IMG/VR virus record: IMGVR_UViG_3300035162_001785
Coordinates: 1-24,317 of that record
Length of the DNA: 24,317 bases
Direction: 5' to 3' (one strand)
From: a virus
Below, piece by piece: positions 10,014-20,818 of the stretch. The notes beneath the pieces were generated by a model. That model was not told the DNA's origin. It saw nothing but the letters and a program-made list of their open reading frames with translations, and did no database searches. How positions within the stretch are numbered: position 1 is the stretch's first letter; each line of letters starts with the position of its first letter. The position numbers and the translations under genes are program-made.

Positions 10014-10462
10014 TCACGCAAGAAGATATCGATGCTTTCAAAGAGCCTGTACCTGATCGCATGCCTCGCACTTCAAGTATATTGGAAATGGTCCGTGACT
10101 TTGCAAAGAGGATGGATCAACCGCTGGATAATGTCTGGCCCACCAGTTTGAAATTAGAAGATTTGCGCTGGGCTATGATCCAAGAGGAATACACAGAAGC
10201 CTTTGATGAAAGCTGCAACCGTAGCAATGAAGAGGCCATGCTGAAAGAGCTAGCTGACCTTGTGTACGTTACTTTCGGATACGCCGCTACTTACGGATGG
10301 AACCTCGATGAGGCCGTCCGAAGAGTTCATCTATCTAATATGTCCAAATTAGGGCTGGACGGAAAACCCCTGAAAAATCCTGAAGGCAAAGTCCTAAAGG
10401 GTCCAAATTATCAAAAATGCAATCTTTCAGACTTAGTAAAGACAAATCTTGGATCATATTGA
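10010..10462 (+). CDS. MazG-like nucleotide pyrophosphohydrolase
   Basis: This 150-aa all-helical protein has the MazG metal-binding layout: QEEYTE with Glu59, Glu60 and Glu63 (EExxE), then KELADLVYVTFGY with Glu80 and Asp83 (ExxD). The later VHLSNMSKLGLDGKP is typical of phage members. The family hydrolyses (d)NTPs or alarmone-like nucleotides to monophosphates. In marine phages it has been proposed to cleanse nucleotide pools or alter the host stress response. Being next to DUF3310, the methyltransferase and the ribonucleotide reductase agrees with nucleotide metabolism. ATG 10010 overlaps the previous stop; the end overlaps the methyltransferase start by 14 bases. Confidence 0.85.
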   Translation: MITQEDIDAFKEPVPDRMPRTSSILEMVRDFAKRMDQPLDNVWPTSLKLEDLRWAMIQEEYTEAFDESCNRSNEEAMLKELADLVYVTFGYAATYGWNLDEAVRRVHLSNMSKLGLDGKPLKNPEGKVLKGPNYQKCNLSDLVKTNLGSY

Positions 10463-11195
10463 CCTGTGTTCAGGGATTGGTGGATTTGCGCTGGGCTTTG
10501 AATGGGCTGGACTGAGCAAACCTGTTTTGTTTTGCGACATAGAACCTTGGAGCCGCAAAGTGCTGAAAAAGCATTGGCCCAATGTGCCGATTGCCTCTGA
10601 TGTTAAGGAACTTGCTAGTGACCCAGAAAGACTTATTCCTCAAACAGACCCCCGAAACACAATCCTCACAGCAGGATACCCCTGCCAACCGTTCAGTGTT
10701 GCAGGAAATCAAAAGGGCGCAGAAGATAATCGCCACATCTGGCCGTACATCCTCGAAATTGTTGCACATAAAAGACCCGCTTGGTGCGTTTTCGAGAATG
10801 TTTATGGTCACATCGGGTTGGGTCTCGACCAAGTCTTGTTTGACTTGGAAGCTGAAGGCTACGCCAGCAGGACGTTTATTGTTCCAGCTTGCGGTGTCGA
10901 TGCCCCCCAAAGAAGAGACAGACTTTGGATTGTGGCCCACTCCGACCACGAGAGATCACAAGGGCGGCTATATCGGGGGTCGGATACGCAACGGAAAAAT
11001 CAGCATGGATACTCTGGATGTGGCGGTGCAATGGACCGACAACCAATCCAAGACAGGTGGGCAACTGAACCCTCAGTGGGTCGAGTGGCTCATGGGATAT
11101 CCAAGCGGGTGGACCGACTTAGAGGATTAGGCAACGCGATTGTCCCTCAAATTGCCCAGCGCATAGGTGAGACAATTCTTAAAAATAACCAATAA
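10449..11195 (+). CDS. DNA (cytosine-5) methyltransferase
   Basis: This protein methylates cytosine at C5 in a specific sequence, probably protecting phage DNA from restriction. Motifs in order: I, DLCSGIGGF (5-13); IV, AGYPCQPFS with catalytic Cys79; VI, FENV with Glu116; VIII, QRRDR (154-158); and IX-X, RLRGLGNAIVP with Gly228-Pro233. All are present in one frame, so the enzyme can be whole. At 248 aa it is short for the family, mainly because the target-recognition region (about 166-215) is small. That limits prediction of the recognised sequence. A stop codon lies in frame at 10437-10439, so the start must be at or after it; TTG 10449 is the best candidate and overlaps the MazG-like gene by 14 bases. 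The second half is also open in another frame (10582-11130). Confidence 0.85.
   Translation: MDHIDLCSGIGGFALGFEWAGLSKPVLFCDIEPWSRKVLKKHWPNVPIASDVKELASDPERLIPQTDPRNTILTAGYPCQPFSVAGNQKGAEDNRHIWPYILEIVAHKRPAWCVFENVYGHIGLGLDQVLFDLEAEGYASRTFIVPACGVDAPQRRDRLWIVAHSDHERSQGRLYRGSDTQRKNQHGYSGCGGAMDRQPIQDRWATEPSVGRVAHGISKRVDRLRGLGNAIVPQIAQRIGETILKNNQ
10582..11130 (+). other. Nested +1-frame ORF inside the methyltransferase gene, possible overprinted protein
   Basis: A 182-codon frame runs inside the methyltransferase, shifted by one base. Its last two-thirds look like a family I recall from phage and prophage genomes. It has a TWKLKATPAGRLLFQLAVS-type segment (residues 88-106), then a FGLWPTPTTRDHKGG motif (115-129), then a GGQLNPQWVEWLMGYPSGW motif (159-177). 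Those fragments appear in databases as parts of methyltransferase-associated proteins. The same bases encode motif VIII to X in the main frame, so both readings look family-like. ATG 10582 is only the first ATG; no convincing ribosome-binding site is seen. It may be a second protein, a frameshift product, or a shadow that has been annotated elsewhere. Length alone is not evidence: other shadow frames here are as long. Confidence 0.35.
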
Positions 11196-13290: not shown

Positions 13291-13327
13291 GAAACCCCCT
13301 GCTAGAAATAGTGGGGGGTTTCTTTTA
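13291..13327 (+). terminator. Strong terminator of the plus-strand operon
   Basis: A 14-bp stem (13291-13304 with 13309-13322, two G-U pairs) closes on a GAAA tetraloop and contains five consecutive G-C pairs. It is followed by TTTTATT on the plus strand. The T-rich tail overlaps the stop codon of the opposing 1297-aa gene (13325-13327). It lies 107 bases after the reductase. Confidence 0.85.
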
Positions 13328-16300
13328 TTGTGGCAACGCTTCTTCCATCTGTTGGTCTAGGCTAGAGGGTAAGTTGTTAGGGTCTACCTCACCATCCCCT
13401 TCTAAAGCACCTACAGTCGCAACTCTTGGTTTAGTCACTGTATTAACAGTCCCAGAAGCCACATACTTTGTACCATCCCAGATATAACTTAGGGGTGCGC
13501 CTATAATGCCCTTTTCTTTAAACCTTGTCTGTATTCTACCCAGACCTTCTTTTATCGTGTCAGTCGCCCGTAACTGGATGGTGGGGTTTTTAGAAATATA
13601 ATCCCGTAACAAATTAGGATTTAATAATAGAAACTCCATCTGCTCCCTTTTCTTCCGCCTTGGTAGTTTATCCACTAAATTCTTCATAAATGCGGAACCA
13701 ATAGAAGCTGCCTGAAGGCTTGCATTACCTTTGCCAAACAGCACCCCTACGTTAGCCCCAGCTAGACGGGCAATATTATTTACCATCATCTCAGAGTCCT
13801 GCATAATTTGATTGAATTGGTTAGGCTCGGCAGTACTTTTCTTTATTCGTATGGACTCAAACATCAATGTAGCTACGGCCTCGGCAGTATCGTCATCCAT
13901 TAGGCCGTTTTGAATCATTATATCCATGCGAGTTGTACCCGCTGATGCAGTATCCAAGGGAGCAAATAGTTGGTTAGACAGACTAACGAAGTCTAGTTCA
14001 TCCCCCTTTGTTGCGGAAGTTATCATCATATCAAACGTAGATGCGCGTAATTGGTCTAAAGCTTCGGCAGGGTCTTCCCCTTGGCGTACTGCGGCAGTCC
14101 GAATGTCTTCTGCCAATTGGGTAAACCGCTGACCGGGGTTATCAAGCGCAAATACTTCAGCTACTGAATTGTTGAATTTCTCAGTAGTACTAAACTTATC
14201 TACCTTAGCCACTAGAATAGCGGCATCTTCCTGTGCCTGTACTAACTGCACAGCCCTTGTCTTAATGGCAGGAAAGCGTTCTACTAAGTCGGAATTATCA
14301 GTAAGGAAGCGGTTAAGGGCTTCGGTAGTAGGAATACCTGATCTATCTGCACTATCCGCAAGGTTTCGGATCATATTCTGCAAAGCAACCGATTGGGCGG
14401 CATTCATATCGGCCCCCAAAGACATTCCTTCGGGCATAGGCATCAACTGCCCATATACTTCTTCGTTGTCCAGGGTGTATATGCCCTCTTCGGGATCATC
14501 CTTAAAAGTATCCTGCCGTTTATTCTTCTCAGTAGTCCCTCGCTGCCATGAAGCATCCTGTCTACGCTTTCTATCGGGGCCGGGAAAGTCGGTTGCGTCT
14601 GCGTCCCTACCACCGGGGTTGGCAGGGTTATATGTAATATTACCGTCTGTATCTATTGTGCCAAATTCATCAACAGACCTCGGAGCATCATCCGCGCCCA
14701 TTGCGCTGGGCCTTTCGTAAAAGGCTCGTCTGAACTGCCTAAGTGAATCGGCCATACTAGGAGTATCAGGGGCCACAGGAGCAGCACTAGGGGGCTGTAC
14801 GTCAGCAGCGGCTTTCTTTGCTCCTGCTATATTTAGATCAATCATTTGCTGGCGTTCTGTACCGAAAGAGGCTGCATCAGTCAGGTCTGAGGCCTCTTGT
14901 GCATCGCGTAAGTTAAGATTGGTTTGATCAGGTGTTCCTGCTGTAGCACTTTGCATAGTAAGTCTAGGGTCTTTAGCTGTACCTCCCCCGGAGGCAGAAG
15001 CTAAGGTATCCTTTATCCAGAATCGGTTATAGGTCTCGTTTAATTTAAGACTGAACTTCCTAGCCATATCGATGACATCTTTATCAGGGCCATCGATTGC
15101 ATTTAATACATCGATTAATGAACCCGCAATTTCGTCATATCGATCAGCAGTTTTAAATTGACTATTGCCACCAGCTTCCCTTGCAAGCTCAAGAAAATAA
15201 CTGCGCTGCTTTAGAATTTCTCCTGCACTAAGGGCTTCCCCTGACTTGGCCCGTGCCAGTAGGTTACTTAGTACTGTATTAGCTTCACCTGACGCTACGT
15301 TAGCGCCTTCTGGCATCTTAGCTTGCTGCGCCCTAATTGACTTTGCAACCTCCGATACATCCACAAGGGTGTCTTTATTAATACGGTCCCACCAGAATGT
15401 TTCTGCTTTCCGTAGATTAGTTTTACCCTCTCGGAGAATAGACTGTACCGAAACTGACGCCGCTTCCATGTCACCTTTAGGTATAGTCTTTAATACATCC
15501 TGAATGGCTTGGGATTTATCTAACATCTCTTTCTGTAAGATGTTTTGTATATAACGGGCTTGCATTATCTCACCCGCACGGCGTGTGCCTTCGTTTTTTA
15601 GTAGTTGACTAGATAAAGTCCACATACCTGCAAGAGCTTCGCCAATTTGCGTATTTACGGCTGTTTTAAACTTCTCACTAGATTTCATCAATGAGTTTTG
15701 TATACCTAAAAGTCCGGCGTTATCAGTACCTGTGCCTGCGGGAAGTGGTGCAAATCCCTGACTTTTTTGTGATTCGCTCAGTGCTTTTAGAACGGCTTCA
15801 ACTTCGTAACTCTCGGCCTCTGTTTTTAGTGCTGTGGCGTCTGCATCTCTCCCTTCGTTGGTGGCTACCCTAGCTTTTTCTAGAATTTCGGCTTTGGCTG
15901 CGTCAATTGAAATCAAAAACTCTTGCCCAGCAGCTTTCCTAGTTGCTTCAGTACTCATTCCACTAAATATTGTTTTTACACCACGGGTAGCCATACCCAA
16001 GGGAGTTACGTTGTAAGCCGCCTTAGCCGCAGCAGGTACTAGACTTACCCCTACAGCCCCAATTACTTCGCCACCCATTGCCCAGTAGGGGTTATCAGGA
16101 GCTAGGGACTCGGCAGTACCAGCACCAATAGCTCCACCTAAGATAGCTACCGCTTCACCTCCTGCAAATGCCGCAGGGTTCTTAGCCATCTGAGCCAGAA
16201 AAGGGTGCATGTTAGGGGTTGCGGCTAGTTTGACTGCATTTGTGAGGGCTAATTTATATAAAGCCGCCGCAGGAAGAGCATTTTCCCCTACACTCCGGCC

Positions 16301-17218
16301 CCCTTGATACAGAAACCTATACTCTTCTGGGATTTCCCGTTTGCTGTCGGGTATGTCAAACCCAACCTCTCTTAACCCCCTTCTAAGGCCCATAGAGCCT
16401 AAAGGATGACCTCCCTCTGAAGCTGCATAAGAACCTTTCATATCTTCAGGCTCAAGGCTTAGGTTAGTACCTAGAACAGCATTAATACCTTTTCTACCGC
16501 CTTGTTCCAGCTTTCTCGCAACCCAGTTGGCTAAATCTACAGGGATACCTGCAAAGTTTGTAAGACCTGTATTAACGCCCATGACGGTTGCCGTTGCCGC
16601 TCCAACATCCCTAACCGTTTTCCCAGTAAGTAAATAATCCATAATCTCTTGGGGGACTACGCCTTTTTCGACATCCGCAGCAAAGTCGTACGGCTTGCCA
16701 TCTACTTCTAGAATGTCTGTGCCGCCTTCGTACATAAGAGTGATGAGGTCTTCAGCGGTTACTCCTCGCTGCAATTCTTCAAGAAAACCTTTAGCGTTAT
16801 AGTTTTCCCCCGTAATCTGAGGTTCTACTTGCGCTTCGTCTAGGGCCGCATCAGTATCGGTATTTTCAGCCGCAGTATCTTCCGCAGGCTCATTTCGGGA
16901 AAGCAATTCTTGTTGGAAAGGGTCGTCACCGGGAAACCTGGGTACAAAAGCAGGCTCTTGGACTTCAGGTGCTTCAACTACAGGTGCTTCAACTTCAGGT
17001 GCTTGAACCACAGGTGCTTGAACCACAGGCTCTTGGACTATAGGCTCTTGGACTATAGGTGCTTGAACCACAGGCTCTTCAACTATAGGTGCTTCAACTA
17101 CAGGATCAGAGAAAAACTTCTCTGTGATCATGCGCTGTTCTTCATCAGAGGGCGTGTCTCCCGCAATGTTAACTAGGACACGACCTTCTTGCGGGGTATC
17201 TACATAAATCTGACCCAT
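13325..17218 (-). CDS. Giant putative virion (internal) protein, 1297 aa
   Basis: ATG 17218 overlaps the upstream stop (TAATG) and has a strong ribosome-binding site, GGAGGTGAT. No enzymatic domain is recognised. Residues 39-88 are ten perfect-length pentapeptides of the form P-[VIE]-V-[QE]-[AE], a stiff, extended linker. A Gly/Ala-rich hydrophobic segment lies at about 351-402 (AVAILGGAIGAG and EVIGAVGVSLVPAAAKAA), which could insert in a membrane. The rest is mostly helical and Ala/Gln-rich, broken by a charged, disordered part around 810-905. Size, the end-of-structural-operon position and the hydrophobic stretch resemble the large internal virion proteins that podoviruses eject into the host envelope; that role is inferred. 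A lysozyme domain, seen in T7 gp16, is not visible. Confidence 0.7.
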   Translation of the reverse strand: MGQIYVDTPQEGRVLVNIAGDTPSDEEQRMITEKFFSDPVVEAPIVEEPVVQAPIVQEPIVQEPVVQAPVVQAPEVEAPVVEAPEVQEPAFVPRFPGDDPFQQELLSRNEPAEDTAAENTDTDAALDEAQVEPQITGENYNAKGFLEELQRGVTAEDLITLMYEGGTDILEVDGKPYDFAADVEKGVVPQEIMDYLLTGKTVRDVGAATATVMGVNTGLTNFAGIPVDLANWVARKLEQGGRKGINAVLGTNLSLEPEDMKGSYAASEGGHPLGSMGLRRGLREVGFDIPDSKREIPEEYRFLYQGGRSVGENALPAAALYKLALTNAVKLAATPNMHPFLAQMAKNPAAFAGGEAVAILGGAIGAGTAESLAPDNPYWAMGGEVIGAVGVSLVPAAAKAAYNVTPLGMATRGVKTIFSGMSTEATRKAAGQEFLISIDAAKAEILEKARVATNEGRDADATALKTEAESYEVEAVLKALSESQKSQGFAPLPAGTGTDNAGLLGIQNSLMKSSEKFKTAVNTQIGEALAGMWTLSSQLLKNEGTRRAGEIMQARYIQNILQKEMLDKSQAIQDVLKTIPKGDMEAASVSVQSILREGKTNLRKAETFWWDRINKDTLVDVSEVAKSIRAQQAKMPEGANVASGEANTVLSNLLARAKSGEALSAGEILKQRSYFLELAREAGGNSQFKTADRYDEIAGSLIDVLNAIDGPDKDVIDMARKFSLKLNETYNRFWIKDTLASASGGGTAKDPRLTMQSATAGTPDQTNLNLRDAQEASDLTDAASFGTERQQMIDLNIAGAKKAAADVQPPSAAPVAPDTPSMADSLRQFRRAFYERPSAMGADDAPRSVDEFGTIDTDGNITYNPANPGGRDADATDFPGPDRKRRQDASWQRGTTEKNKRQDTFKDDPEEGIYTLDNEEVYGQLMPMPEGMSLGADMNAAQSVALQNMIRNLADSADRSGIPTTEALNRFLTDNSDLVERFPAIKTRAVQLVQAQEDAAILVAKVDKFSTTEKFNNSVAEVFALDNPGQRFTQLAEDIRTAAVRQGEDPAEALDQLRASTFDMMITSATKGDELDFVSLSNQLFAPLDTASAGTTRMDIMIQNGLMDDDTAEAVATLMFESIRIKKSTAEPNQFNQIMQDSEMMVNNIARLAGANVGVLFGKGNASLQAASIGSAFMKNLVDKLPRRKKREQMEFLLLNPNLLRDYISKNPTIQLRATDTIKEGLGRIQTRFKEKGIIGAPLSYIWDGTKYVASGTVNTVTKPRVATVGALEGDGEVDPNNLPSSLDQQMEEALPQ
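16955..17104 (-). repeat. Tandem 15-bp repeat array encoding ten pentapeptides
   Basis: Ten units of 15 bases, all in frame, encode residues 39-88 of the 1297-aa protein. On the plus strand the units vary around GGTGCTTGAACCACA and GGCTCTTGGACTATA. Near-identical neighbours suggest duplication by slippage or unequal exchange, and unit number could vary between relatives. Confidence 0.8.
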
Positions 17219-20200
17219 TAATTATCACCTCCAAAGGTGTAGACTGGAATGCCATCTTCTGACGTAGAGGTTTGCGTCAGGTTGTTATTCGGTACTGCAT
17301 CAGGGGCGGTAACTGTTTCTGTAATATTCAGACCCGATGTTACTTTCACTTTGGCCTTGGTTTCGGCGTCCTGCCACGCAAGGAAAAGATTACCGTAAGA
17401 TTCATATAACGGTTTTAGTGCATTAAGCTGAATAAATGCTTTTGATTTTGCAGTGGGAGTAGTTCTCCCGTCTAAAGTAAGCTGCAAAACGTCCATTTGC
17501 CTGCGTAATTCGCTTACAGTACCTTTCAACTTCTGTTTTGCTTCAGTTTTACTTTCAAACAAAGTAGCCGCTTTAGGTAAATTATCTAGAATAAGATTCT
17601 TGTTCATAACACTGTCGCGAGAGCCTTCGATAGCCACCGATATACTACGCATAGCTGCGTTATTTAGCCCCTTAATATATGTTTGCATTTGAATTAACTC
17701 TGGGAAGGTCTCCCAACCAACAAGGGCCGTAGTATTAGACGCTGCCCACTTTAGGAATGCACCTGACCCAAACGCCTTACGCACATCCAGATTACCCCCA
17801 GGGGTTTTCTCCCTGTCCATAAAGGCTTGTGATTCAAATAAGTCTTCACGAGACACGGTAATTTCTTCGCCATTAACAATCGTTTTGAAGCCAGTTTGAC
17901 TAAGTTGGGTTATATTAGCCGCTATCTCTGCAACTGGGGTCTGAATCTCAGCAGGAGCCGAAGCTGAGAAACTATCAAAGTTCATCACAGTTCTGTCGCC
18001 AGTAATTGGATCAGCAACTATTTGGGTTGTACCGCCGACCGTAGCCCTAGCAAAAGCCTCCTCTACACCACTATCCAATAGAAATTGTAATTTAGCTTCT
18101 TGATTAAGGGTAGTATTATTAACCCCTACTAGACCCGCTATCATTGAAGGTAGGGTATCCTTTAGAAACTTTTGTCCTTCGGCTTCTAAAGTGGGGTCAC
18201 CAGATTTAATATTTTGGTTAGCCTTAAATATCTCACCAGCTACAAATTCGGCATTAAAGGTAGGTGCATCAGGAGTCTTAGCAGACTGATCCTTCCAAGT
18301 GGTTTCCCAGTTGGTCAAAACATCTATAAGCTCCTGACCTGTTTTGCCTGTATTCTCAGGCAGAGCTAGATGCGCTTTAAGAGCTACCTGATAGGTATTA
18401 ATGTCTTCTCCTTCAGCAATCAATCCTTCAGCCTTCGCCAGTACGGCACGAACCCGTGTGAAACTTGTCATTTTTTCTGGGGTGTCAAATACTTCTGGTC
18501 CCGCCGCCGCTACAAAGGCATCTACTTCGGTTGTTGAGTTCCATGTTCTACCTGTAGGGTCTAAAAGCTCTGATAGCTTGGCATCCTCTGCTATTTTGAC
18601 CCTAGAGTTGTACATATCTTGAACAAGTTGTAAAACATCGGGTTGTTCAGTAAGAATACCCGTATCGATAATAACCTTTAAGTCCTCGACAGGTAATTGT
18701 AGAAGTTTATCGTCCTCATACCAATTAGGTTTCTGGGTTATATCGGTAAAAATCTTCCACGTAGTCTCTATAGAAGCCATAGCCCCAGAGTCAGGGATTT
18801 TAATCGACTTACCATCTTCACCTACTGTGAAGAAACCTTTTTCTTTATAAACAGCTTTCAAGAAACGCTCTTTAGTAGTCAGCTTTTGTTCAGCCTCTAA
18901 ATCATTCTTATTTACTTTTTCTAGCGCCAGACCGCGCAATATTATGAGGTTTTTCAGAGATGCGACGTTTCGCTCATAGAACGGATCATTCTCATCTAAC
19001 ACGCCTTGGACTTTCATTGCTGCGTCATACCATTCTACGCCCTTATCCAACTCTTGGGAAAGTGCTTGTAGGTTAAATGAGTTAGCTAAGGCGTCCTTGC
19101 GTGAAAGTGCGATACGGATATTCTTACCAAACTTTGTATCCTCTGCATGAACGGAAGCGTAAAGATTCAAGTCACTGACTTCTTCTAATATCAACTTATC
19201 CAGATCATTAAATATATCTGAGTTTTCTTCTTCCGTTTCTTTAACAGCCCTTATAGCTTCAACTATTTTAACTTCGTCTTCCGTTAAAGAGACAATGTTT
19301 AAGACTGTATCCAAACCTACCTTTTCGCCATCGCCATTAACTGGCAAAGCCATAAGCTGCTTCCGTGTGTAACCACCCGCTACTTTAAAAAATTCCTGTC
19401 CTACAGCCCAAGCTTTTATGTCTAAAGCGTCAGGGTCACTCTCACCCCTCTTAGGATCGGTGACTATTCTCTGATATATCCCTTCCCAATTATCTTTTCT
19501 GAGGTCTCCCGTATCAAATCGGGGTTTTGTATAAGGCTCTAAGGTAACTTGTGTTTCGCCAAATACAGGAACCTCTTCGTAATTCTTCTCAGCATATAAA
19601 GATTCTTGCTTGGCATCCGACAACTCTAAATCAATCATTTGCTGGGCTGTTGTAGCGTAATCTGTAGGCTTGCCGTCAGAGTCTTTTTCGTTGGCAATCC
19701 TTTTAAGGTCTTCAGGCCCTACGGGCCTCCGTTCTTCGCCATACGCTTGGATACTATTATCCCATGTAGTGGTACTATACATCGGTCCTGTAATAGGTGA
19801 CTCGTCAGTAGGACGCTGTGCGGGTGGCTGGTTGAGGTCAGCACCTGAAATGGACAACAATTCCGTACCCACTTGCTGCGGGGTGAAAGATAGTTGATTA
19901 TTCTTTATTAGTAATATAGTATTTTCTACTGTATCATTGTAATCATTATCACTCGCAACGAGATTTTGTCTAAAATAATCTATTACTTTAGCGTTTGAAC
20001 CTGCGTCAGAACCCGCAAACTGATTAGCTAATCTAACCGCATTAGTTTCAATCTTTTTAGCTAATGTATCTTCAGCATCCTGCTTGGCTTTTATACTCCG
20101 TGCGGCAACTCTCGCTTCTTGCCGCTTGACCCGCTCTTCTTGCCTTTTCTCTTCGTCTTGTTTTTTAAGTCCGTAGGTTAGTTCGTCAAAAAACCCAGCA

Positions 20201-20277
20201 AACGGGTCTACCTTCTTCTTAAATGAGCCTGCGGATAATCCCGCCCGTACATTAGCTTTCTCTGTCTTAAAGCTCAT
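17218..20277 (-). CDS. Large putative virion (internal) protein, 1019 aa
   Basis: ATG 20277 follows GAGGA by eight bases and overlaps the 183-aa gene by 11. Residues about 35-75 are a highly charged, heptad-like helix (KKQDEEKRQEERVKRQEARV and following) and likely a coiled coil. The remainder is helical, acidic and without recognised domains or signal peptide. The C-terminus is Thr/Asn-rich (ITETVTAPDAVPNNNLTQTS). Coupling by overlap to the 1297-aa gene (stop and start share a base) suggests the two are made in equal amounts, as with paired internal core proteins such as T7 gp15 and gp16. That analogy is inference from size, order and composition. No catalytic motifs are seen. Confidence 0.7.
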   Translation of the reverse strand: MSFKTEKANVRAGLSAGSFKKKVDPFAGFFDELTYGLKKQDEEKRQEERVKRQEARVAARSIKAKQDAEDTLAKKIETNAVRLANQFAGSDAGSNAKVIDYFRQNLVASDNDYNDTVENTILLIKNNQLSFTPQQVGTELLSISGADLNQPPAQRPTDESPITGPMYSTTTWDNSIQAYGEERRPVGPEDLKRIANEKDSDGKPTDYATTAQQMIDLELSDAKQESLYAEKNYEEVPVFGETQVTLEPYTKPRFDTGDLRKDNWEGIYQRIVTDPKRGESDPDALDIKAWAVGQEFFKVAGGYTRKQLMALPVNGDGEKVGLDTVLNIVSLTEDEVKIVEAIRAVKETEEENSDIFNDLDKLILEEVSDLNLYASVHAEDTKFGKNIRIALSRKDALANSFNLQALSQELDKGVEWYDAAMKVQGVLDENDPFYERNVASLKNLIILRGLALEKVNKNDLEAEQKLTTKERFLKAVYKEKGFFTVGEDGKSIKIPDSGAMASIETTWKIFTDITQKPNWYEDDKLLQLPVEDLKVIIDTGILTEQPDVLQLVQDMYNSRVKIAEDAKLSELLDPTGRTWNSTTEVDAFVAAAGPEVFDTPEKMTSFTRVRAVLAKAEGLIAEGEDINTYQVALKAHLALPENTGKTGQELIDVLTNWETTWKDQSAKTPDAPTFNAEFVAGEIFKANQNIKSGDPTLEAEGQKFLKDTLPSMIAGLVGVNNTTLNQEAKLQFLLDSGVEEAFARATVGGTTQIVADPITGDRTVMNFDSFSASAPAEIQTPVAEIAANITQLSQTGFKTIVNGEEITVSREDLFESQAFMDREKTPGGNLDVRKAFGSGAFLKWAASNTTALVGWETFPELIQMQTYIKGLNNAAMRSISVAIEGSRDSVMNKNLILDNLPKAATLFESKTEAKQKLKGTVSELRRQMDVLQLTLDGRTTPTAKSKAFIQLNALKPLYESYGNLFLAWQDAETKAKVKVTSGLNITETVTAPDAVPNNNLTQTSTSEDGIPVYTFGGDN

Positions 20278-20818
20278 CTTGTGGTTCCTCTTCTACCATC
20301 GCACCTAGCATCGCCGCCTGTTCATCCTCAGATGCTGACATCTGGTCAGGCATAGCCATGAGACCTTCTGTAACGGCCTCTGGTGCGTCTTCTTCAATCG
20401 CAGGCTCTTCCTCCACAACCGGTTCAGGTTCATCCATGATGCCCAGAGAGGCTTTTAGCAAAGTAGGGGTGATAATCACACGATCCTTGTCCTCCACTCC
20501 CATCTCATATTTAATTCCGACATCTTTAGCTGCAATCTCAATGTAACGGGCGAGGGGGCCTGCAATTAGGATAGCTAGGTCAATGCCTATTTTACCTTTA
20601 CTAATAGCCTGTAGAAGTAGCGTAGTGACTACTGTGGTGATGTGTGCATCGATGCCCAGCATCGCGTAGACAACTTCGATTTGTTCAGGTTCATCAATCC
20701 GGTCAATCATGTAGCTAATAGCTACATCATAATCGACTAGATCAGGTGGCCTGTGCCATGAATAATTCTTTGTGTCCGAAGTAAAATTCCCGCCGGGGAT
20801 TGGAGCCTCAAGCCTCAT
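20267..20818 (-). CDS. Small acidic structural-operon protein, 183 aa
   Basis: ATG 20818 is preceded by AAAGGAG at about seven bases and overlaps the 65-aa gene by 11. Residues 1-25 are polar; a hydrophobic helical centre follows (TTVVTTLLLQAISKGKIGID and LAILIAGPLARYIEIAA, about residues 60-97). The last 55 residues are very acidic and Met/Ala-rich (VVEEEPAIEEDAPEAV). Such hydrophobic-core, acid-tail proteins next to large virion proteins could act as a chaperone or scaffold for them, but no family is recognised. The coding call rests on position, ribosome-binding site and chain-wide reading. Confidence 0.7.
   Translation of the reverse strand: MRLEAPIPGGNFTSDTKNYSWHRPPDLVDYDVAISYMIDRIDEPEQIEVVYAMLGIDAHITTVVTTLLLQAISKGKIGIDLAILIAGPLARYIEIAAKDVGIKYEMGVEDKDRVIITPTLLKASLGIMDEPEPVVEEEPAIEEDAPEAVTEGLMAMPDQMSASEDEQAAMLGAMVEEEPQDEL

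Follow-up and report, generated by a model that had tools for sequence, protein, structure and literature searches.

The question raised by this locus is whether a stretch of viral DNA that encodes a DNA methyltransferase (MTase) encodes a second protein as well. In a 24,317-base IMG/VR virus record, analysed over its full length and referred to below as the window, a C5-cytosine MTase gene (alpha; positions 10449..11195, like all other positions given for this locus on the + strand; 248 residues from a TTG start) contains a long open reading frame (ORF) in its +1 frame, which runs from an ATG at 10582 to 11130 and would specify 182 residues. An earlier sequence-only reading of the window had offered several options for this +1 ORF, namely an overprinted partner of the MTase, an anti-restriction factor, a programmed frameshift or a conserved shadow wrongly annotated in databases. 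As described below, the +1 ORF is a conserved protein-coding gene (beta) and not a shadow, and its product, judged from comparisons of predicted proteins, appears to be the part that the MTase lacks.

A conserved gene inside the methyltransferase gene

The placement of both ORFs by the sequence-only reading was reproduced, together with that of FGLWPTPTTRDHKGG and GGQLNPQWVEWLMGYPSGW, both of which are read in the +1 frame of the MTase gene, and the overlapping motifs indeed share their bases: the frame-0 segment ...WIVAHSDH corresponds to ...GLWPTPTT in the +1 frame, and GRVAHGISKRVDRLR in one frame corresponds to VEWLMGYPSGWTDLE in the other. The same reading had cautioned that length alone does not decide. 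This is borne out by the window, in which the longest +1 ORF is mildly unusual under synonymous shuffling (p=0.035) and the stop-free probability is 0.10; the evidence becomes decisive only across relatives. Owing to the weakness of the window-only case, relatives were fetched, separately by the +1 protein and by the main-frame protein. In all 107 unique loci, the +1 ORF was longer than in synonymous shuffles at p<0.05, with a median of 209 codons versus a shuffled mean of 94 and versus 45 in the +2 frame, which served as a control. Frequent +1-frame stop codons in close homologues, named beforehand as grounds for giving up the gene, were not found: from alpha nucleotide (nt) 190 to just 5' of motif X, 101 of the 105 testable relatives are stop-free in the +1 frame, as are all 30 of the relatives fetched by alpha only, whereas synonymous shuffling predicts 0.45% stop-free genes and 4.8 stops per gene.

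The frame-0 codon positions were then compared over independent pairs of relatives, as the ratio of third-position to first-position differences. This ratio amounted to 2.6-3.3 upstream of beta and 4.2-18 downstream of its end, and to 0.37-1.2 inside the beta overlap (alpha codons 91-226). Within the overlap it was 0.8-1.2 at codons 91-172, 0.6-0.9 in the variable stretch of codons 173-205, and 0.37-0.46 under the WVEWLMGYP segment (codons 206-226), which showed the strongest synonymous constraint; from codon 229, third positions vary freely again. In the overlap, no suppression is seen at the frame-0 first positions, where the +1 frame has its wobble positions, and the pattern therefore points to +1 coding rather than to a constraint acting on the DNA or RNA as such.

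A dual-frame selection check, proposed with the sequence-only reading, was performed in an OLGenie-like manner on 26 independent pairs and placed the +1-frame ratio of nonsynonymous to synonymous change (dN/dS) below 1 in the overlap. Over codons 91-226, NN/NS was 0.58 [0.41-0.75] and SN/SS was 0.32 [0.24-0.50] (the letters denoting nonsynonymous or synonymous change in frame 0 and then in the +1 frame), and over codons 3-42, which lie outside beta, the values were 0.95 [0.70-1.42] and 0.72 [0.54-1.11], respectively. SN/SS fell to 0.08 [0.03-0.19] in the segment that resembles MTase motif IX (see below), and constraint was weak in the N-terminal stretch of beta (codons 57-90). Frame 0 itself looks nearly unconstrained in codons 173-205 (NN/SN 0.99 [0.83-1.31]), and in this stretch, where SS sites are few, it is apparently the +1 protein that counts.

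The probable start of beta was located from the relatives, most of which have a +1 ATG at alpha nt 169 behind AAAGGAG, as in gatgtaaaggagttagcaaATGACCCAG. A +1 start with a strong Shine-Dalgarno (SD) sequence was present in the start region of 42 of the 64 representatives, versus 8.4 expected under synonymous shuffling, and in 34 of the 64 the start lies exactly at alpha nt 169. At this position, where relatives have AAGGAG...ATG, the window has a GTG (10618) behind an SD-like TAAGGA (10604..10609), 8 nt 5' of the GTG. The conserved SD sequence and the aligned start position thus point to a beta of probably 170 residues, encoded at 10618..11130 and closed by a TAG stop (11128..11130) immediately 5' of alpha motif X; the GTG would be the true start, with the ATG at 10582 probably unused.

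Motif IX and its place in the second frame

Alpha matched PF00145 (E 6e-36), TIGR00675 (E 1.3e-29) and phrog_363 (E 2.1e-66), and motifs I-VIII and X of the C5-MTases are present in it. These include motif IV PCQ with the catalytic Cys (10680..10688) and motif VIII QRRDR (10908..10922), both read from the translation and supported by phmmer alignment, in the former case to the PCQ of M.HhaI, as well as motif X GNAIVP (11130..11147), read from the translation. The matches cover only profile positions 1-169 of 324 for PF00145 and 2-168 of 329 for TIGR00675, such that coverage stops after motif VIII, and no LTPRE-type motif was found between motif VIII and the GNAIVP of motif X; for these two reasons, alpha is considered to lack motif IX. 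The main frame had been credited by the sequence-only reading with all of the C5 motifs, which has to be corrected, since motif IX is missing from frame 0 and is supplied by the +1 frame. The gene thereby departs from the single-chain arrangement of the M.HhaI type, with motifs I-X on one polypeptide.

The +1 product matched PHROG_1008, a family named 'DNA methyltransferase' (phrog_1008; E 1.1e-27), as did all 39 relatives of the set designated A1. Its C-terminal segment LNPQWVEWLMGYPSGWT (11065..11115), which overlaps the alpha segment GRVAHGISKRVDRLR, resembles motif IX (L-T-P-R-E-x-x-R-L-Q-G-F-P). Single-chain MTases of actinophages carry LPTP segments, followed by EWMMGWPAGW and then by a GNGV motif X, all in one frame, and the hhalign comparison of the beta family with these enzymes (Prob 97, E 1.9e-11) gave an alignment that ends exactly in the motif-IX segment. 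The predicted structure of one single-chain MTase (L269; predicted local distance difference test, pLDDT, 72) could be aligned over its full length with that of M.HhaI (VIA-align Z 23.9, root-mean-square deviation 3.4, 233 residues). In beta, a low-confidence AlphaFold model predicts a two-strand hairpin, CLTWKLKATPAGRLLFQLAVS (10834..10899; strands 73-81 and 87-94), which is conserved in set A1. When 39 beta proteins were scanned against Pfam (at E 0.01) and NCBIfam, none had a match, and hmmsearch with the beta profile found no hit among PDB sequences.

The distribution of the motifs among relatives was examined by classing non-redundant loci according to the position of motifs IX and X relative to motifs I-VIII; the classes were assigned by regular-expression search, and the counts are approximate. 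In 213 loci the arrangement was that of the window, with motif IX in the +1 frame and motif X in frame 0, while both motifs were in frame 0 of a single chain in 32 loci, both were in the +1 ORF in 11 loci (e.g., Gordonia phage Camerico gp38/gp39, L219 and L247), and a classical LTPRE-type motif IX was in frame 0 in 13 loci. Among the nested loci, motif IX is without exception missing from alpha and present in beta. In L219 and L247 the two segments that are encoded by the same bases in the window sit side by side in one chain, and the +1 motif is therefore independent of the overlap. In L193 and L222, indels in the variable region have swapped the frames of motifs IX and X, resulting in three-ORF arrangements that may be inactive or transitional.

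Whether matches to beta are always overlapped by an MTase, a check suggested with the sequence-only reading, was answered by the genome loci fetched with the beta family, all 80 of which overlap alpha; these loci come from Bacillota, Pseudomonadota, Bacteroidota, Acidobacteriota, Chloroflexota and others. An independent beta, free of an overlapping alpha, was sought and was not found in these 80 loci; L193, L219, L222 and L247, which at first looked like exceptions, turned out to be frame rearrangements of the same parts. In two loci, Porphyromonas phage018a (L006, 1798-2412) and Salmonella phage SLP-22 (L009, 1510-2463), the deposited annotation gives a name to the +1 ORF and omits the overlapping catalytic frame.

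A probable two-polypeptide enzyme and the alternatives

Dual coding, the internal start, the presence of motif IX in beta only and the rearrangement of the pieces in relatives lead to a reading of the locus as a two-polypeptide enzyme. On the strength of these sequence features, alpha and beta quite probably form a heterodimeric C5-MTase of the M.EcoHK31I kind, with beta nested in the +1 frame of alpha. Alpha, in frame 0, would contribute the catalytic large domain and the cofactor motifs (I-VIII and X), and beta, with the variable region that follows motif VIII and with motif IX, would constitute the small domain for DNA recognition. Beta would be translated independently from the internal ribosome-binding site of the same gene and hence be produced together with alpha. 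Together, alpha and beta would make up a single active orphan phage MTase, which may modify the phage DNA, plausibly against host restriction.

Several observations weigh against this assignment. AlphaFold modelled beta on its own poorly (pLDDT 59, predicted template modelling score 0.28); the model was not used as evidence, and a fold search with it gave no meaningful PDB match. The homology to motif IX comes mainly from the C-terminal part of beta, and no in-frame counterpart was found for its N-terminal ∼95 residues. Moreover, a selected +1 ORF also lies over complete MTases. The genes of complete phage MTases, which have their motif IX in frame 0, contain a long +1 ORF that ends ...CSLSxVLET..PxKYYLSPKAARGILRRAEKRG and differs from beta (QLTLFAxDSPARTY...KYYLSPKAARGILRRAEKRG; L306, L310, L327, L331, L338 and L388-L467, all viral contigs). 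Among 81 such genes the +1 ORF exceeds the synonymous shuffles in 83%, and the third/first ratio is 0.53-0.91 at codons 166-195, compared with 2.2-4.6 in the N-terminal part and 1.9-3.1 in the C-terminal part. The hhalign comparison of this ORF with beta (Prob 90, E 1.5e-6) is confounded by the overlapping alpha homology and was not used as proof. The supply of motif IX is therefore not the sole role of the +1 family; a +1 partner is more widespread among phage C5-MTases than the loss of motif IX, and a distinct role may belong to the N-terminal part of beta. It is conceivable, if rather doubtful, that the +1 gene arose long ago as an overprinted partner of phage C5-MTases generally, which would predate its motif IX and bear an N-terminal domain, also lying over complete MTases with motif IX in frame 0, with a separate role, such as the setting or switching of target specificity, the catalytic and recognition parts having been shuffled between the two frames several times.

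These findings can also be taken to mean that beta, although genuinely overprinted, does something else, for example as a regulator, a specificity modulator or an anti-restriction factor, and that its likeness to motif IX is incidental or secondary. Such a role would suit both the selected +1 ORF over complete MTases and the N-terminal ∼95 residues of beta, which match no Pfam, NCBIfam or PDB family. It is nevertheless unlikely, given that the nested alpha always lacks motif IX and beta always provides it, that elsewhere the motif is in frame 0 or joined to motif X, and that beta was never seen without an overlapping alpha in the 80 genome loci. As regards the options of the sequence-only reading, the overprinted MTase partner is favoured by selection, openness, the internal ribosome-binding site and the motif-IX homology, and no match supports an anti-restriction factor.

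A programmed frameshift from frame 0 into the +1 frame after motif VIII, giving a fused chain with motif IX, would account for the fact that frame 0 and the +1 frame hold consecutive motifs of one enzyme. A single shift, however, would lose the motif X of frame 0, and a shift after motif VIII leaves unexplained the +1 selection well upstream of that motif (codons 91-135); with a conserved SD sequence and start codon available for beta, the frameshift is unneeded and very improbable. The least credible explanation, to which we assign a negligible probability, is that the alpha codons merely happen to leave the +1 frame open and that databases were annotated by mistake. The overlap with alpha at every beta locus checked and the mildly unusual length of the window ORF would both be expected of such a shadow, but it is rejected by the synonymous-shuffle, codon-position and dual-frame dN/dS tests alike, and the same motif stands in frame 0 of single-chain MTases.

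Genomic setting and relation to known systems

On the + strand of the window, the MTase gene follows genes for a primase, a DnaB-like helicase, a DNA polymerase, an exonuclease, a RusA-like resolvase and a MazG-like pyrophosphohydrolase, and precedes a ribonucleotide reductase gene. No restriction gene was recognised beside the MTase locus, whose neighbours are the MazG-like and ribonucleotide reductase genes. The minus strand at 13325-20818 contains two very long ORFs (1297 and 1019 residues) and a 183-residue ORF, none with a PHROG match. The ORF at 14169-14720, which the sequence-only reading had called a minus-strand shadow, actually lies on the + strand, antisense to a minus-strand gene (13325-17218), and is likewise devoid of a PHROG match.

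The closest known counterpart in motif layout is M.EcoHK31I, a YGGCCR C5-MTase of two polypeptides, in which the large subunit carries motifs I-VIII and X, and the small subunit carries motif IX (PMC3404938). The window shares this division, with motif IX absent from the large polypeptide. The small EcoHK31I gene reportedly sits entirely within the large one, in a different frame, and encodes 176 residues (Lee, Kam and Shaw 1995, NAR 23:103); the nesting of beta (10618-11130) in the +1 frame of alpha (10449-11195) would be of the same type, with 170 residues versus 176. Unlike the window, M.EcoHK31I is part of a restriction-modification system, and the likeness drawn here is one of motif layout and gene arrangement. 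Furthermore, the literature places the target recognition domain of EcoHK31I in the large subunit, whereas the selection pattern after motif VIII in the window fits the small subunit better.

M.AquI (CYCGRG) is likewise a C5-MTase split over two polypeptides, the smaller of which bears both motif IX and motif X (PMC3404938). In the window, by contrast, motif X stays in alpha and beta stops at 11130, although the 11 related loci with both motifs in the +1 ORF do have that arrangement. The single-chain gp66 of Mycobacterium phage DillTech15 resembles the window in its LPTP segments, its EWMMGWPAGW motif IX and the GNGV motif X that follows, but is encoded entirely by frame 0 of a single gene. 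Paenibacillus phage Lily (g62/g63) also carries a nested +1 gene in a C5-MTase gene, which its depositors annotated as 'g62 internal gene', giving it no function or subunit role. A hidden out-of-frame protein in a phage DNA methylase gene is known, too, from the ShiLan-type HNH endonuclease (PMC11855218). That protein is a mobile homing insertion, whereas beta is not an insertion and showed no HNH or other Pfam match in the scan of 39 beta proteins. A LAGLIDADG-like reading, YVAGLIDGEGCVHL, was observed out of frame, in the +1 frame, in a methylase gene of Gordonia-type phage (L292 and L294), and may be compared with the hidden HNH of PMC11855218.

The kind of enzyme is thus already known from M.EcoHK31I, and the wider +1 family is the part most likely to be new; no report on the nested-gene family, its selection or its spread was found in the literature, for which open-access coverage is partial and the lack of a report is weak evidence of novelty. 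A second, selected gene seems to be hidden in hundreds of phage and prophage MTase genes, and annotation pipelines drop it or name it instead of the MTase proper. Should the activity depend on beta, alpha cloned or annotated alone would represent an inactive enzyme, and half of the enzyme would be overlooked in restriction-modification and methylome studies. The locus is also an unusually clear and widespread case, in bacterial viruses, of what are most likely two functional halves of one protein encoded on the same DNA, with relatives that display several arrangements of the frames.
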